Positions 4,258-64,000 of a stretch of DNA of 64,000 bases are shown one piece after another (within the stretch, counting starts at the first letter, position 1; each line of letters begins with the position of its first letter). Below the pieces are notes generated by a model, which had not been told where the DNA came from, did no database searches, and saw only the letters and a list, made by a program, of their open reading frames with translations. The DNA lies in the NCBI RefSeq assembly GCF_900110225.1, contig NZ_FOCW01000002.1:62001-126000 (forward strand), written 5' to 3'. Both the position numbers and the translations under genes were made by a program. Source of the DNA: Allobrachymonas denitrificans DSM 15123 (GTDB taxonomy: Bacteria > Pseudomonadota > Gammaproteobacteria > Burkholderiales > Burkholderiaceae_C).

Positions 4258-5361
4258 ATGCAGAACACTCGCAGGATTGCAATCGTTGGCATGGCCGCTG
4301 CCATGGCTTTTGGCCTGGCAGCTTGCGGCAAGAAGGACGAGGCCAAGCCGGCCGCTTCCGGTGCCGATGCACAACCCCAGGCACAAGCCAGCAGCAGCGG
4401 CATCACCGGCGCGGGCGCTTCCTTCCCGGCTCCGCTGTACTCCAAGTGGGCGGCTGAATATGCCAAGGCTTCCAACGTCAAGGTCAACTACCAGTCCGTG
4501 GGCTCCGGTGCCGGCATGAAGCAGATCGAAGCCAAGACGGTCGATTTCGGTGCTTCCGACGAGCCGCTGAAGGACGAGGACCTGAAGGCCAAGGGCCTGG
4601 TGCAGTTCCCCACCGTGGTGGGTGGCGTGGTGCCCGTGATCAACGTGGAAGGCATCGAGACCGGTTCCATGGTGCTGGACGGCACCACGCTGGCCAAGAT
4701 CTACCTGGGTACCGTGACCAAGTGGAATGACCCCGCCATCAAGGCCCTGAACCCCGACCTGAAACTGCCTGACGCCGTGATCGCTCCGGTGCGTCGCGCT
4801 GACGGTTCCGGCACCAGCTTCAACTTCACCAACTACCTGAGCAAGGTCTCTCCCGAGTGGAAAGAGAAAGTGGGCGAGGGCAAGGCCGTGAACTGGCCGG
4901 TCGGTACCGGTGGCAAGGGTAACGAAGGCGTGGCCCAGTTCGTTGGCCGCCTGCCCAACTCCATCGGCTACGTCGAGTACGCCTATGTGAAGCAGAACAA
5001 GATGAACTACGTCAAGCTGAAGAACGCAGCCGGCAACGTGGTCAGCCCCGAAGAGAAGACCTTCAAGGCCGCTACCGCTGCTGCCGACTGGAAGGCCTCC
5101 TTCTACCAGATCCTGACCAACCAGGACGATGCTGACGCATGGCCGATCACTGCTGCCACCTTCATCATGATGCAGGCCAAGCAGGACAAGCCCGAGGCGG
5201 CAGCTGCTGCCCTGAAGTTCTTCGACTGGATGTACGCCAACGGCGACCAGATGGCTTCCGAGCTGGACTACGTGCCGATGCCGGCTGACGTCAAGGCCGT
5301 CATCACCGAGTCCTGGGCCAACATCCAGGACAACTCCGGCAAGGCCATTGCCTACAAGTAA
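4258..5361 (+). CDS. pstS: Phosphate-binding protein PstS (lipoprotein, copy 2)
   Basis: Second PstS, 367 residues from the ATG at 4258, which has an AAAAGGA ribosome binding site; an in-frame ATG at 4201 lacks one and would spoil the signal sequence. The N-terminus ends in a lipobox LAAC at about residues 18-21, so this copy should be a membrane-anchored lipoprotein. A linker of about 25 Ala/Lys/Gln-rich residues precedes ITGAGASFPAPLYSKWA. The body repeats copy 1 closely, with the same FGASDEPLKD and GSGTSFNFTNYL phosphate-site motifs. It is followed after 108 bases by pstC. The two copies differ mainly in anchoring and in charge, with more Asp/Glu here. Confidence 0.96.
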   Translation: MQNTRRIAIVGMAAAMAFGLAACGKKDEAKPAASGADAQPQAQASSSGITGAGASFPAPLYSKWAAEYAKASNVKVNYQSVGSGAGMKQIEAKTVDFGASDEPLKDEDLKAKGLVQFPTVVGGVVPVINVEGIETGSMVLDGTTLAKIYLGTVTKWNDPAIKALNPDLKLPDAVIAPVRRADGSGTSFNFTNYLSKVSPEWKEKVGEGKAVNWPVGTGGKGNEGVAQFVGRLPNSIGYVEYAYVKQNKMNYVKLKNAAGNVVSPEEKTFKAATAAADWKASFYQILTNQDDADAWPITAATFIMMQAKQDKPEAAAAALKFFDWMYANGDQMASELDYVPMPADVKAVITESWANIQDNSGKAIAYK

Positions 5362-5384
5362 GCCCCTGAGTTGATCGCAGGCAG

Positions 5385-5432
5385 TCCGGCCGGCACGCAG
5401 GGTCTGGTTTTCAGACCCGCTGCAGGGCCGGA
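5385..5432 (+). other. Two-tier stem-loop between pstS and pstC
   Basis: An outer stem TCCGGCC/GGCCGGA (5385-5391 and 5426-5432) encloses an inner perfect hairpin GGGTCTG-GTTTT-CAGACCC (5400-5418). It is followed by only three T residues. Such structures often protect the upstream mRNA or cause partial termination, giving more binding protein than permease. The effect here is inferred. Confidence 0.6.
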
Positions 5433-5469
5433 TTTGCCGCTATCAGCCGGATTTTTGGGATAGATAACC

Positions 5470-6498
5470 ATGTCTTCCGTTGTTTCCTCTGCAGAGGCCA
5501 TCATGCAAGAGCGCGAAAAGGCGGAGCGCACCACGCGACCGCCCAGCCCCAAGGTACAGCGCCACAAGGGTGCACTGGCCGACCTGTTCTTCGCCGGCGG
5601 CGCCAAGCTGGCCGTGATTGTCACGCTGAGCCTGTTGCTCGGCATCCTGGTTTCCCTCATCGTCGGTGCCTGGCCGGCGATCGAGAAGTTCGGTCCCGGC
5701 TTCCTGACGCGCAGCGCGTGGGACCCGGTGATGGAAGATTTCGGTGGTTGGGTGATGATCTACGGCACCCTGGCCACCTCGTTCATTGCCTTGCTGATCG
5801 CGGTTCCCGTCAGCTTCGGCATTGCGCTGTTCCTGACTGAAATGTCGCCCACCTGGCTCAAGCGCCCGCTGGGGACTGCCATCGAACTGCTGGCTGCCAT
5901 TCCGTCCATCGTGTACGGCATGTGGGGCCTGATGGTGTTCGGCCCGATCCTGGCCGAGTACGTGCAGGCACCGCTGCAGGCGTCTCTGGGCGCCGTGCCC
6001 GGCCTGGACTTCCTGTTCAGCGGCCCGCCCGTCGGTATCGGTATCCTGCCCGCCGGCATCATCCTGGCCATCATGATCATCCCGTTCATCGCCTCCGTGA
6101 TGCGCGACGTGTTCGAAGTGACGCCGGTGATGCTGAAGGAATCCGCCTATGGACTGGGTTCCACCACCTGGGAAGTGGTCTACAAGGTCGTGCTGCCGTA
6201 TACCAAGGCAGGCGTGATCGGCGGCATCATGCTCGGTCTGGGTCGTGCCCTGGGTGAAACCATGGCCGTGACCTTCGTGATCGGCAACATGAACCAGCTG
6301 GCCTCGCTCAGCCTGTTCGAGCCCGCCAGCAGCATTACCGCCACGCTGGCCAACGAATTTGCCGAAGCCGGCGACGGCCTGCACCGCGCGTCCCTGATCT
6401 ATCTGGGCCTGGTGCTGTTCTTCATCACCTTCGTGGTGCTGAGTTTCTCCAAGCTGCTGCTCAACCGTCTGCAGAAAAACGAAGGGAGCAAGACATGA
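5470..6498 (+). CDS. pstC: Phosphate ABC transporter permease PstC
   Basis: Inner-membrane subunit of the Pst importer, 342 residues. A cytoplasmic N-terminal stretch of about 40 charged residues is followed by six predicted membrane segments. The EAA loop typical of binding-protein-dependent permeases is visible ([20 protein letters not shown], then [17 protein letters not shown]). The ATG at 5470 has only a weak GGGA upstream; an internal ATG at 5503 is an alternative start. The stop overlaps the pstA start as ATGA (6495-6498), so the two permeases are translationally coupled. Expression should follow the PHO box of the second pstS. Confidence 0.95.
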
Positions 6499-57893: not shown

Positions 57894-60185
57894 GTGAGCC
57901 GGCGTGTGGATGCCGGCGTGAATGCCACCATGAATCCCGCAAGCGCCCCCGGGGGCACCCATACCGACAATGCAGAAGTAGCCGGCATCGTGCAGGCCAG
58001 TTCCGACATGCTGCCTGTGCACGCCGACATCCTGGCGCAGGCGCGCCAGTTCGCCGGGCCGCTGCTGGTCAATTGCCAGCTGCCCTCCGGCGAGAACGAG
58101 CTGGAGCATGCCGACGGCGTGGCCAACATCCTGGCGCAGATGGGCGGCGCCGCCTCACTGCAGGCCGTGCCCTATCTGGTGTACGCGGCCGACCACCTGA
58201 GCCGCCCGCAGGAAATGATCGCCCAGGCCTTTGGCGAGGAATACGCCCAGCTGGCGCTGCAGGCCACGCGCCTGATGCGACTGCAACAAAGCCAGCGCGT
58301 ACAGCCTGGCAGCAGCCTGGGCACGCAGGCCGAACAGATTGAGGCCGTGCGCAAGATGCTGCTGGCCTTTTCGCGCGACCTGCGCGTGATCCTGCTGCGG
58401 CTGGCTTCGCGCCTGCAGACCCTGCGCCACTACGCCGCCACCAAGCTGCCGGTGCCGCATGCGCTGGCCTACGAGGCGCTGCATGTGCTGGCGCCCCTGG
58501 CCAACCGGCTGGGCATCTGGCAGATCAAGTGGGAGATGGAGGATCTGGCGTTCCGCTTTCTGGAGCCGGACACCTATCGCGATGTGGCCCGCCTGCTGGA
58601 CGAGAAGCGCATCGGCCGCGAGCAGCGCGCCGAGGAGCTGCGCCGCATTGTGCGCGACGGGCTGGGCGAGCAGGGTATCGTGGCCAATGTGCAGGCGCGG
58701 CCCAAGCACATCTACAGCATCGTCAAGAAGATGCGCGGCAAGGGGCTGGATTTCGAGCAGATCTACGACCGCATGGCGCTGCGCGTGATCGTGCCCGAGG
58801 TGAAGGACTGCTACGAGGCGCTGAGCTGGGTGCACAGCCACTACGATGCGATTGCCTCCGAATTCGATGACTACATCGCCAAGCCCAAGGCGAACGGCTA
58901 CCAGTCGCTGCACACGGTTATCCGGCAGCAAGGGCCGGATGGACGCCAGCGGCCGGTGGAAATCCAGATCCGCACGCAGGAGATGCACGACCACGCCGAG
59001 AGCGGTGTGGCGGCGCACTGGGCCTACAAGGAGGCCGGAGCCAAGGGCTACAGCGGCCACAGCGCCAACAGCGCCTACGATGCCAAGATCGCCGTGCTGC
59101 GCCAGCTGCTGGCCTGGGAGCGTGATTTTGCCGCCGGCGGTGACGAGGCGCCTTCACCCGAACAGCCGGCCCTGCTGGAAGACAAGATCTATGTGCTGAC
59201 GCCGGAAGCGGCCATTGTCGAGCTGCCGCAGGGCGCCACGCCGGTGGACTTTGCCTACAGTGTGCATACCAGCCTGGGCCACCGCTGTCGCGGCGCCAAG
59301 GTGGACGGCGCCATGGTGCCGCTCAACACGCCGCTGCGCAACGGGCAGACCGTGTCCATCACGGCGGCCAAGGAGGGCGGCCCTTCGCGTGACTGGCTGA
59401 ATGTGGAGCAGGGCTATCTGGTGAGCAACCGCGCGCGCGCCAAGGTGCGTGCCTGGTTCAATGCGTTGGTGTTGCAGGATGCGATTGCACGCGGTCGCGA
59501 GGCTGTGGAGAAGCTGCTGCAGCGCGAGGGCAAGACGGCGCTCAAGCTCGACGATCTGGCCGGACAGCTCGGGTTTTCGGACGCGGATGCGCTGTTCGAG
59601 GTGGTGGGCAAGGACGAGTTCTCGCTGCGCAACATCGAGGCCGTGCTCAAGCCGCAGGCGCCGCAGCTGTCGCAGGACGAATTCCTGCTGCAGAAGCAGG
59701 CCGCCAAGGGTGATCGCAAGACGCACCGGCCTGCGCCCAAGGGGGGCGTGCTGGTGGTGGGCATGGGCTCGCTGATGACGCAGCTGGCCAAGTGCTGCAA
59801 GCCGGCACCGCCGGACGATATCGGCGGCTTCGTCACGCGCGGCAAGGGCGTGAGCGTGCACCGGGCCGACTGCCCCAACTACCGCAGCATGGTGCGCGAC
59901 AACCCCGAACGCGCCATCGAGGTGCAGTGGCAGGGGCTGGAGGGCGGCGCTGCTGCCTATCCGGTCGACATTCTGGTGCAGGCGACGGACCGTGCCGGCC
60001 TGCTGCGCGATATCAGCGAACTGTTTGCGCGCGAGAAGATGCCCGTGGTCGGCCTGCACAGCGATGCGGGCAAGGAAATCAGCCACATGATGATCACCGT
60101 GCAGGTGAGTGACACGCACCGCCTCAACAAGGTGCTGGGCGAGTTGGCGGTGATGGAAGGGGTGATGTCGGCGCGGCGGCGCTGA
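57894..60185 (+). CDS. relA: (p)ppGpp synthetase RelA (RSH family)
   Basis: Stringent-response enzyme of about 763 residues. The N-terminal HD hydrolase domain is degenerate: the HD pair expected in ALLHD is replaced (YLVYAAD), so hydrolysis is unlikely. The synthetase domain is intact (KHIYSIVKKMRGKGLDFEQI, DYIAKPKANGYQSLHT, EIQIRTQEMHDHAESGVAAH). TGS (DKIYVLTPEAAIVELPQGAT), a helical domain, the CCKP zinc-finger-like segment, and a C-terminal ACT domain follow. This order marks RelA rather than SpoT. GTG at 57894 with GAGAG upstream; ATG at 57930 is an alternative. Confidence 0.93.
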   Translation: MSRRVDAGVNATMNPASAPGGTHTDNAEVAGIVQASSDMLPVHADILAQARQFAGPLLVNCQLPSGENELEHADGVANILAQMGGAASLQAVPYLVYAADHLSRPQEMIAQAFGEEYAQLALQATRLMRLQQSQRVQPGSSLGTQAEQIEAVRKMLLAFSRDLRVILLRLASRLQTLRHYAATKLPVPHALAYEALHVLAPLANRLGIWQIKWEMEDLAFRFLEPDTYRDVARLLDEKRIGREQRAEELRRIVRDGLGEQGIVANVQARPKHIYSIVKKMRGKGLDFEQIYDRMALRVIVPEVKDCYEALSWVHSHYDAIASEFDDYIAKPKANGYQSLHTVIRQQGPDGRQRPVEIQIRTQEMHDHAESGVAAHWAYKEAGAKGYSGHSANSAYDAKIAVLRQLLAWERDFAAGGDEAPSPEQPALLEDKIYVLTPEAAIVELPQGATPVDFAYSVHTSLGHRCRGAKVDGAMVPLNTPLRNGQTVSITAAKEGGPSRDWLNVEQGYLVSNRARAKVRAWFNALVLQDAIARGREAVEKLLQREGKTALKLDDLAGQLGFSDADALFEVVGKDEFSLRNIEAVLKPQAPQLSQDEFLLQKQAAKGDRKTHRPAPKGGVLVVGMGSLMTQLAKCCKPAPPDDIGGFVTRGKGVSVHRADCPNYRSMVRDNPERAIEVQWQGLEGGAAAYPVDILVQATDRAGLLRDISELFAREKMPVVGLHSDAGKEISHMMITVQVSDTHRLNKVLGELAVMEGVMSARRR

Positions 60186-61746: not shown

Positions 61747-63378
61747 TTACTTGCCCTTGCGCAACTGCCCCAGCCGTTCGATCACCTGCTGGTCCGGCTC
61801 ACGCACGGTTGCAATATAGCCTTGATACACCAGCCCCTGGTTGCCATCCAGGGTCAGCGTGTCGCCCTCGCGCAGGGTCAGTTCGCCCAGCTGGATGCTG
61901 CCGTCGCTGCTGTCTATGCGCAGGGTTTCGCAGCCGACCAGGCAGACCTTGCCCAGCTGGCGCGCCACCACGGCCGCGTGCGAGGTGCGGGCGCCGTTGC
62001 GCGTGAGCAGGCCCACGGACTGCTCCAGAGCGGCGATGTCATTGGTTTCCGCGTCATTGCGCACCAGAATCACATCCTTGCCCTTGGCTGCGCGTTTGGC
62101 CGCGCGCTGCGGGTCCAGGGCGATCTCGCCGCTGCACACGCCGGAGCAGGCGCTGGCTGCCTGGCCCACCGGGCGGGCCGGCGCGCCGCTGTCGCTGGCG
62201 AGGTGTGCCGTGCTCAGCTCGGCATCCTGCAGCGCCTCGGTGCGCTGCAGGGCCGTGGCGCGGTCGATCAGGCCTTCCTCATGCAGGTCCAGCGCAATGC
62301 GGGCGGCCGCCAGCGGCGTGCGCTTGCCCGAGCGCGCCTGCAGCAGGTAGAGCTGACTGTCCTCCACGGTGAATTCGAAATCCTGCATGTCGCCAAAGAC
62401 CTGCTCCAGCGTGCGTGTGGCTTCAGACAGCTCTTCCCAGGCCTCCGGTGCCAGATCGGCCATGGCTTCATGTCCGTGCGCATTGCGCCGGCCGGACACC
62501 ACGTCCTCGCCCTGGGCGTTGGCCAAAAAGTCGATCCACAGCGCCGGCTCGCCATTGCTCGGGTTGCGCGTGAAGCCCACGCCGGCGCCGCTGCGGCCAC
62601 CGGCATTGCCGAACACCATGCGCTGGATGGTCACGGCCGTACCCATGGCGCTGTCGATGCCGTTGAGCTTGCGGTATTCGCGCGCCTTGTTCGAGTCCCA
62701 GGAGGAGAATACGGCCAGCACGGCACGCGCCAGCTGCTGGCGCACATCCTGCGGGAAGGGGTGGCCGGCATGCTCGGCATACAGCGCGAGGAAGGTGCGG
62801 GTGAGCTGGCGCAGTTCGCTGAAATCCAGCAGGCGCTCGTCGCGGCCTTGCGTCAGATCCTGCAGCGCGTTCTCGAACAGCGAAGCGGGCAACCCTTCCA
62901 CCACTTCGCCAAAGCTGGCGACCAGGCGGCGGTAGGCATCCCACACCAGACGCGGATTGCCGGTCTGGCGCAGCAGGCCGGGCAGGGTGGCATCGCACAG
63001 GCCGATGTTGAGCAAAGTCTCCATCATGCCTGGCATGGAGATGGGCGCACCGGAGCGCACCGACACGATCAGCGGCTTGCGCGTGTCGCCGAACAGGTAG
63101 CCGGAGGTCTGTTCCAGCGCCGGAATGCCGGTGTCGAACAGCGGGCGGATGCACTGCTTGCGATGGTGGGCATAGTGCGTGCCCAGCACCAGGGCGGAGG
63201 GCACGGGCAGGCCGGCTTGCGCCATGCGCAGCAGGTTGAAGGCCTTGGAGCCCATGGTGTCGCGGCTGGGCGCCACGCCGTTGCGCACGAAGGGGGTGTG
63301 GTCGGCCTTGCCGGTGGCAGCCGGGTTGGCAATCAGGTAGAGGTGGTCGGGCCAGGGAAAGGGGTGGTGGGTCGTCAT
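61747..63378 (-). CDS. PPDK-like protein without the PEP/pyruvate barrel
   Basis: 543 residues. The N-terminal two thirds match the ATP-grasp part of pyruvate phosphate dikinase: MGSKAFNLLRMAQAGLPVPS, SVRSGAPISMPGMMETLLNI, and a GTAVTIQRMVFGNAGGRSGA block. The swivelling phosphohistidine domain follows with LLTRNGARTSHAAVVARQLG, His467 being the expected phosphocarrier. The protein ends about 75 residues later, so the C-terminal TIM barrel that binds PEP or pyruvate (over 300 residues in PPDK, about 870 in all) is missing. It should therefore phosphorylate itself from ATP and phosphate, but needs another acceptor. Its start overlaps the stop of the DUF47 gene (ATGA). Not a truncation by mutation as far as can be seen: no barrel remnant follows. 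Confidence 0.88.
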   Translation of the reverse strand: MTTHHPFPWPDHLYLIANPAATGKADHTPFVRNGVAPSRDTMGSKAFNLLRMAQAGLPVPSALVLGTHYAHHRKQCIRPLFDTGIPALEQTSGYLFGDTRKPLIVSVRSGAPISMPGMMETLLNIGLCDATLPGLLRQTGNPRLVWDAYRRLVASFGEVVEGLPASLFENALQDLTQGRDERLLDFSELRQLTRTFLALYAEHAGHPFPQDVRQQLARAVLAVFSSWDSNKAREYRKLNGIDSAMGTAVTIQRMVFGNAGGRSGAGVGFTRNPSNGEPALWIDFLANAQGEDVVSGRRNAHGHEAMADLAPEAWEELSEATRTLEQVFGDMQDFEFTVEDSQLYLLQARSGKRTPLAAARIALDLHEEGLIDRATALQRTEALQDAELSTAHLASDSGAPARPVGQAASACSGVCSGEIALDPQRAAKRAAKGKDVILVRNDAETNDIAALEQSVGLLTRNGARTSHAAVVARQLGKVCLVGCETLRIDSSDGSIQLGELTLREGDTLTLDGNQGLVYQGYIATVREPDQQVIERLGQLRKGK

Positions 63379-64000
63379 GCCGGGACTCCGGTTTTCAGGA
63401 AGGCCATCTGGCGCAGTGCGTAGCCGGTGGCAACCAGCGCATCCGAGGCGCCTTCGATGGTGGTGGCAAGTTCGGTGGCCAGCAGCATGGCGGCCGGTTG
63501 GGCGTGCAGCGTCTGCACGATGTGCTGGCGCGCGGTGCGCAGCAGGTCATCACACAGGCGCTCGGCGCGCAGCATGCGCCACAGGATCTGCAGGAAGGCA
63601 TCGCTGTCGGTGGTGTCAATGCCGGCATCGAGCAGGCGGGCGATCTCGATCGCCTTGACCAGATCCTGGATCGCCACCAGTGTGGTGTCGGCCAGCTTGC
63701 CCAGCACTTCCATGACGGACGGCGGCAGCCCGTTGATTGGCTCCACCAGGGTGAGCGTGTAGATGAAGGCAGATTCCTCCAGGGCGTCAGCCACGTTGTC
63801 GGCCTGAACCAGCAGGTCGACCACGGCGCGCCAGTGCGGCTGGCGTTCGGCGCGCTGGCGTGCGGTTGCCAGCAGGTGGTCGGCGCGGTGTTCCCAGTTC
63901 TTGGCGCGTTGCACCACCTGGTCGCAATGGCCGTTGCAGCCTTGCGTCAGCACATCGCACAGCGTCTGCGCCAGCGCGTGGCAGAAGGCGGCATGTTCGG
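63375..64000 (-). CDS. DUF47 (PhoU-like) protein, N-terminus beyond the window
   Basis: At least 208 residues; the frame is open to the window edge, so the start is not seen. The sequence is all helical with acidic metal-site motifs of the DUF47/PhoU-like family: NWEHRADHLLATARQ, LLVQADNVADALEESAFIYT, and RLLDAGIDTTDSDAFLQILW. A Cys/His pair-rich N-terminal piece (QTLCDVLTQGCNGHCDQ) is unusual. Members are mostly found with Pit phosphate transporters. Here the partner is a PPDK-like protein whose gene overlaps by four bases, so the two are co-translated and probably act together. Confidence 0.85.
   Translation of the reverse strand, partial: EHAAFCHALAQTLCDVLTQGCNGHCDQVVQRAKNWEHRADHLLATARQRAERQPHWRAVVDLLVQADNVADALEESAFIYTLTLVEPINGLPPSVMEVLGKLADTTLVAIQDLVKAIEIARLLDAGIDTTDSDAFLQILWRMLRAERLCDDLLRTARQHIVQTLHAQPAAMLLATELATTIEGASDALVATGYALRQMAFLKTGVPA

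Follow-up and report, generated by a model that had tools for sequence, protein, structure and literature searches.

What does a pyruvate phosphate dikinase (PPDK) become once its phosphoenolpyruvate (PEP)/pyruvate barrel is lost? The question is raised by a gene near the end of a 64,000-nucleotide stretch of Allobrachymonas denitrificans DSM 15123 (contig NZ_FOCW01000002.1, positions 62,001 to 126,000; "the window" below), which encodes a barrel-less, PPDK-like protein of 543 amino acids (aa) and overlaps the gene of a larger partner with a PhoU-like DUF47 domain. A barrel-less PPDK is the next gene in each of the 89 loci that carry the partner and have enough sequence (50 of the beta set, 39 alphaproteobacterial), a count of how often the PPDK is next given the partner and not the reverse, since the partner was the query by which the loci were located. 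Judged by gene order, the two genes form one conserved gene unit. Its features in the window are as follows.

61747..63378, minus strand: barrel-less PPDK-like protein, 543 aa (P0002), an open reading frame with PPDK_N and PEP-utilizers domains, aligned to PPDK over residues 33-526
62329..63279, minus strand: ATP-binding part, about residues 34-350, with K45, R108, D333, E335 and Q347, from alignment to the solved PPDK
61834..62079, minus strand: phosphohistidine (PEP-utilizers) domain, residues 434-515, Pfam PF00391
61978..61980, minus strand: codon of His467, the expected phosphorylation site, opposite PPDK His455
63375..63378, minus strand: ATGA overlap of both genes, seen in the sequence
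63375..64000, minus strand: visible 3' part of the 649-aa partner gene, followed on its own contig, where it starts about 1.3 kb past the window edge
63411..64000, minus strand: PhoU-like DUF47 domain (residues 437-638 of the partner), beginning just outside the window (PF01865, PhoU-like fold)

Conservation and distribution of the pair

The 89 loci exclude three whose contig ends in or just past the partner (L026, L050, L051), a second assembly of the Methylocella plasmid in which both genes are broken up (L056), and two duplicates (L134 of L043, L138 of L033). Closed PPDK frames measure 520-608 aa in 87 of the 89, and in the other two the frame continues past the contig end. The genes overlap by 4 nucleotides in 46/50 beta-set and 17/39 alpha-set loci, the remaining spacings ranging from -11 to +26 nucleotides. 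No third gene common to all loci was seen. A scan of named genomes yielded 32 loci, mostly Burkholderiales by name, with the PPDK next in 29 and a contig end in 3. The pair is also present in a genome of the same genus (G002), and it is plasmid-borne in Aquabacterium olei and Methylocella tundrae.

The partner occurs in 5 of 60 relatives, in 25 of 299 genomes of the A. denitrificans family and in 4 of 398 genomes of a phylum sample, A. denitrificans itself counted. It is further found in 9 of 289 genomes of the class of G389, taken here as Alphaproteobacteria from genome kinship and Methylocella-like sequences, in 30 of 198 genomes of one family within that class, and in 5 of 7 genomes of a small order. 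The distribution of the pair across Beta- and Alphaproteobacteria is patchy. An earlier, sequence-only reading of the locus had made its proposal depend on a pairing that extends beyond close relatives, and such a pairing is found in both classes.

In a tree of 64 pair-linked, 6 longer and 4 other barrel-less PPDKs (VadK, discussed below, not included), all 64 pair-linked sequences fall on one side of a 100/100 branch, with the 6 longer and 4 other short PPDKs opposite. These 4 are scattered among the longer ones, which suggests that barrel loss in PPDK was a repeated event. Locus L123, from an alpha-set genome, groups with beta loci in both the PPDK and the partner tree, which indicates that the pair moved as a unit between lineages. 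L054 (Methylocella) conflicts: its PPDK is placed among the beta loci, its partner among the alpha loci; this weighs against a neat picture of unit transfer, and the placement has a long branch and was flagged as unsure by the program.

The PPDK-like protein

Pfam recognises two domains in the 543-aa protein, PPDK_N (118.5 bits) and PEP-utilizers (66.5 bits); it finds no barrel, and no domain follows PEP-utilizers. By phmmer its residues 33-526 match about positions 10-514 of PPDKs of about 874 aa, and because the alignment ends there the C-terminal barrel is absent. His467, within ARTSHAAVV, aligns with His455 of the solved PPDK in the same searches, and K45, R108, D333, E335 and Q347 align with PPDK K22, R92, D321, E323 and Q335, residues with catalytic roles. 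Equivalents of all of them, His467 included, are kept in 64/64 pair-linked PPDKs; the residue before the catalytic histidine (the Ser466 equivalent) is Ala, not Ser, in 30 of 34 alpha-set pair PPDKs. By these alignments the protein keeps the residues for ATP-dependent histidine phosphorylation and has lost the pyruvate/PEP site. The score of a full-length PPDK is not reached (TIGR01828, 501 bits, cut-off 843), and the 534-position model of a short 'pyruvate, phosphate dikinase' (NF004531), of which VadK is presumably a member, is matched with 420.8 bits, below its 456-bit cut-off.

The domain layout given in the sequence-only reading, i.e. 543 residues with ATP-binding and phosphohistidine domains, His467 in ARTSHAAVV and no barrel, is confirmed by open reading frame, Pfam and phmmer. 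The ATGA overlap noted there is likewise present; the overlapping gene, described there as a DUF47 gene, is a fusion in which DUF47 forms the C-terminal part only.

The same reading had considered a barrel encoded in a separate neighbouring gene. The A. denitrificans genome contains two barrel-bearing frames, of 600 and 801 aa, and no stand-alone PEP barrel over the cut-off was found in it or in 19 further pair-bearing genomes. Every over-cut-off match in these 19 lies in a frame of at least 553 aa, besides one sub-cut-off match in a 310-aa frame, and 12/12 alpha genomes of the search also have a barrel within a frame as long as a full PPDK (887-1014 aa). A split PPDK was rejected on this absence of a stand-alone barrel frame.

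The partner protein

The partner gene, upstream of the PPDK-like gene, encodes 649 aa from a TTG start (L003, a 20 kb piece of the same contig, 4375-6324). Its PF01865 match (31.1 bits, cut-off 24.4) covers residues 437-638 only, no other Pfam family is recognised in the protein up to an E-value of 5, and the N-terminal region of about 430 residues is uncharacterised. An AlphaFold model of the whole protein (29 sequences) has a mean predicted local distance difference test (pLDDT) of 84.5 and a predicted template modelling score (pTM) of 0.52. Residues of about 430-647 are predicted to be PhoU-like, with structure matches to 3l39 (Z 24.2 over 203 residues at 2.5 A), 2olt (Z 22.1) and true PhoU proteins (Z about 20).

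Modelled alone, the N-terminal part reaches pLDDT 85.8 and pTM 0.74. Pfam, NCBIfam and PDB profiles give only weak, scattered matches to this region, the best with an E-value of 0.0031 in one member, and Foldseek returns no match to its model at E <=0.001. A likeness to the C-terminal domain of T4 MotA (Z 9.2, 105 residues, 3.3 A) may be just a common arrangement, and the lack of other fold matches rules out nothing. Across 65 partners many N-terminal polar residues are invariant, including histidines 159, 166, 214, 240 and 259, as are the runs QNDIGxxDxH and IDWNxARK (65/65); the invariant region takes in H214, N232-D233, D238, H240 and D325-K331, and the PhoU part of these proteins retains acidic pairs of the ExxxD kind. 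Because its polar residues are invariant, we infer that the N-terminal region is a candidate working site that replaced the barrel.

Pho-box-like sites upstream of the pair

A scan for Pho boxes was made because a homologous operon of Sinorhizobium (see below) has been reported as PhoB-controlled. It covered 250 bases upstream of the partner in 86 loci, 3 of the 89 being too short, at a threshold of at least 10/14 matches to what we take to be the Pho box consensus; the sites are sequence matches only. They occur in 64/86 loci, compared with 7.6 expected from shuffles and with 58/439 control windows upstream of other long open reading frames in the same loci. Half-site gaps other than 4 return 11-24 loci and scrambled half-sites 35 at best (mean 9.6); the signal is specific to the true half-site at a gap of 4. 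With the loci thinned at 75% partner identity and 150 bases scanned, 35/50 have a site versus 30/261 controls (Fisher p 5e-17), and windows inside the pair have none (0/50, thinned set). The sites lie on the coding strand in 45 of the 64 cases, at a median of 51 bases to the start. TGTGAC ranks top in an unbiased 6-mer count, followed by mixed words, several of them containing GTCAT or GTCAC. At the A. denitrificans locus an 11/14 site is located 59 bases before the TTG start, outside the window (contig C13, 127384-127401). Phosphate is probably the theme of the pair.

Gene neighbourhoods

Among the first 32 loci, CHAD genes stand near the pair in L024, L025, L035, L044, L047 and L053, PhaC in L025, L031, L036, L039, L045 and L047, FabI with MaoC-Pta in L036, L039, L045 and L053, and AckA in L036 and L053. 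Genome-wide, CHAD occurs in 27/32 genomes, usually once per genome, and PhaC in 32/32. The 6/32 loci with CHAD and 6/32 with PhaC compare with 0.09 and 0.21 expected from these genome-wide counts (computed for these two markers), in a test that was chosen after the neighbours had been seen and on related, non-independent loci. A second set was examined with the markers fixed beforehand (18 new beta, 5 new alpha loci). The 18 beta-set loci contain Pta in 9, FabI in 8, AckA in 6, PhaC in 3 and CHAD in 1, which supports the first four and CHAD hardly; none of these markers is present in the 5 alpha-set loci. On one strand the order ackA-fabI-partner-PPDK-pta is found in L146 and L147, and partner-PPDK-fabI-pta-ackA in L150 and L053.

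The first 34 alpha-set loci show phosphoketolase and AckA genes before the pair in L063 only, PhaC in L119 and L122, a FabI-like gene in L104, L110 and L120, and no CHAD. In Methylocella the pair is placed after annotated beta-oxidation genes, and at the A. denitrificans locus the upstream neighbour is a YceI gene.

As DUF47 proteins usually go with phosphate transport, the sequence-only reading had suggested looking for a Pit transporter gene nearby, which finds no backing here: a tblastn search of the 89 loci at E 1e-5, which did recover its positive control, detected no relative of the A. denitrificans Pit transporter, and elsewhere in this genome a phosphate transporter (Pit) gene of the PHO4 family follows an ordinary DUF47 gene (L004, 5901-7643). 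A plain Pit/PitR unit was rejected on the 649-aa fusion and on the absence of Pit relatives from the loci.

A RelA/SpoT-type (p)ppGpp (guanosine tetra-/pentaphosphate) enzyme is encoded at 57894-60185 of the window, about 1.6 kb past the 3' end of the pair, with no sign of unit membership. PPDK-like genes were also seen in other surroundings. On a Skermanella mucosa plasmid (L132, 2390-4096) a barrel-less PPDK starts at the base where a pyruvate kinase gene ends, a different pairing; a Rhodococcus plasmid (L126, 724-11434) carries a short PPDK in a run with genes for a separate PEP-utilizing-domain protein, an AMP-binding protein, biotin carboxylase and thiolase; and on a Methylibium petroleiphilum plasmid (L127, 5905-8439) a PPDK-like gene adjoins bacterial microcompartment genes. 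Genome G026 (L017, 3119-4870) has a solo short PPDK near a 583-aa protein in which Pfam recognises only the phosphohistidine domain; genes of this region look dioxygenase-like by eye.

Comparison with known systems

With PPDK itself the 543-aa protein has the ATP-binding and histidine domains and the catalytic residues in common, and only PPDK has the barrel. The sources cited in the following were available in part, and statements on them refer to those parts. In Mycobacterium tuberculosis the barrel-less PPDK VadK (Rv1127c), given ATP and Mg, phosphorylates itself on His422; it co-precipitates with methylcitrate-cycle enzymes and is reported by its authors in other actinobacteria and in Burkholderia ambifaria (PMC13400623). 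It resembles the 543-aa protein in its ATP-binding and phosphohistidine domains, the kept catalytic histidine and the absent barrel; it is tied to acyl-CoA metabolism through the methylcitrate cycle, and the pair often lies near acyl-CoA/acetyl-phosphate genes. The available part of that paper reports no PhoU-like partner for VadK, whereas the 543-aa protein has a constant one. With this precedent, histidine kinase activity in a barrel-less PPDK is no novelty.

PitR is a single-domain DUF47 (PhoU_div) protein encoded with a Pit transporter (PMC13170248). It shares the DUF47 domain and PhoU-like fold with the partner, which differs in the fusion of DUF47 to an uncharacterised region, the coupling to a PPDK-like gene and the lack of Pit in its loci. 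Phenylphosphate and phenylphosphoamidate synthases are multi-subunit relatives of dikinases with a phosphorylated histidine and a new acceptor (PMC7500099); their acceptors are aromatic, the available part mentions no PhoU domain, and, unlike in phenylphosphate synthase, the ATP-binding and histidine domains of the pair share one protein.

A review of Burkholderia polyhydroxyalkanoate (PHA) genes presents the cluster phaC-pta-ack-fabI and, citing earlier work, gives a homologous Sinorhizobium operon, pta-ack-fabI, as induced by phosphate starvation via PhoB (PMC8231600). The neighbour genes are the same and a PhoB link is reported; a PPDK-like or DUF47 gene is not named in the part available. 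CHAD domains bind polyphosphate (PMC6537752), and a CYTH-CHAD protein has been reported on the polyhydroxybutyrate (PHB) granules of Herbaspirillum (PMC3783465). In the literature searched, no description was found of a PPDK-like protein coupled to a PhoU-like partner, of the partner's additional region or of the Pho-box-like sites.

Function of the pair

Our preferred explanation is favoured by the adjacency in 89/89 loci, the single 100/100 lineage, the conserved residues, the PhoU-like fold of the partner, the Pho-box-like sites, the reported PhoB control of the Sinorhizobium operon, the neighbours and the autophosphorylation of VadK. This explanation, to which we give somewhat less than an even chance, is a Pho-regulon, PPDK-derived two-protein phosphotransfer system that adjusts acetyl-phosphate/PHA/polyphosphate metabolism. 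Phosphotransfer, phosphate sensing and metabolic output are what we infer for it. At low phosphate, PhoB would switch the pair on. His467 would be phosphorylated from ATP through PPDK chemistry, inorganic phosphate serving as the cosubstrate, and the phosphorylated histidine (His~P) would thereby signal ATP and phosphate jointly. Its swivelling domain would dock on the partner as a substitute for the lost barrel, the N-terminal region of the partner being either a reader of the phosphorylation or the putative acceptor, through a conserved residue or a metabolite bound to it, and the PhoU-like domain may contribute metal/phosphate or membrane input. The output would tune flux at the acetyl-phosphate/PHA/polyphosphate node. 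The sequence-only interpretation of a phosphate-sensing or phosphate-storage phosphorelay is thus partly supported: its phosphate theme is borne out by the Pho-box-like sites, and sensing and transfer to the DUF47 protein belong to the conjectural part.

Several observations weigh against this explanation. The N-terminal region is without a recognised fold, and its acceptor role is guessed from conservation; PPDK-type use of phosphate and transfer to the partner are likewise conjectural, and for VadK the assay used just ATP and Mg, according to the available part of PMC13400623. Neighbours are variable: the 39 alpha loci have AckA in L063 only, PhaC in two and neither Pta nor CHAD, CHAD recurred in just one of the 18 new beta loci, and the acetyl-phosphate, PHA and CHAD markers are absent beside the A. 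denitrificans locus. As to the upstream sites, 22/86 loci have none at threshold, 19 of the 64 are on the non-coding strand (most in alpha-set loci), and the nearest relative of A. denitrificans scores only 9/14.

Among the alternatives, a VadK-like regulatory kinase, in which the phosphorylated PPDK-like protein binds and tunes acyl-CoA or acetyl-phosphate enzymes and the PhoU-like partner acts as adaptor or inhibitor that receives no phosphoryl group, is rather unlikely but a serious contender. VadK does autophosphorylate and co-precipitate with enzymes of the methylcitrate cycle (PMC13400623), and acyl-CoA and acetyl-phosphate genes are neighbours of the pair; the partner is constant in 89/89 loci, however, and its invariant N-terminal polar residues exceed what an adaptor needs. 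A further alternative is a metabolic dikinase in which the two proteins jointly phosphorylate a small molecule, e.g. a carboxylate to an acyl-phosphate that a neighbouring Pta converts to acyl-CoA; pta adjoins or shares a run with the pair, and the phenylphosphate and phenylphosphoamidate synthases are precedents for a new acceptor (PMC7500099). This we consider improbable: AckA, already an acyl-phosphate maker, is often in the same cluster, and PhoU domain and Pho-box-like sites suggest control more than plain catabolism.

For a polyphosphate-related enzyme, with His~P passing to or from polyphosphate and CHAD proteins binding the polymer, one may point to the CHAD genes, usually one per genome, beside the pair in 6/32 loci and to the binding of polyphosphate by CHAD domains (PMC6537752); with CHAD in 1/18 new beta and 0/39 alpha loci, it is very improbable. 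Hardly any credence is due to a split PPDK with its barrel encoded elsewhere, in favour of which nothing was found: no stand-alone barrel frame over the cut-off was found in A. denitrificans or the 19 further genomes, and 12/12 alpha genomes have a barrel in a frame of full PPDK size.

A narrower form of the preferred phosphotransfer explanation is an intracellular phosphate gauge, its histidine charged only with ATP plus inorganic phosphate, with a new acceptor domain in place of the PEP barrel and a PhoU module, under PhoB and acting on acetyl-phosphate/PHA/polyphosphate storage. We regard it as doubtful in this full form; if true, it would be a phosphorelay made from an enzyme of central metabolism and not from a sensor kinase. 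A switch of the kind proposed would, if real, be a new way to build a phosphate-starvation switch for carbon storage out of a metabolic enzyme. The pair joins three separately studied things: a dikinase turned histidine kinase, a PhoU/DUF47 protein without Pit, and phosphate-starvation control of acetyl-phosphate/PHA storage. It has long been asked how PhoU-type proteins read phosphate, and a PhoU module combined with ATP/phosphate chemistry would make the question directly testable in Brachymonas, Acidovorax, Polaromonas and similar harmless bacteria. If PPDK did lose its barrel several times, as the tree suggests, it may be an enzyme from which signalling kinases arise repeatedly.

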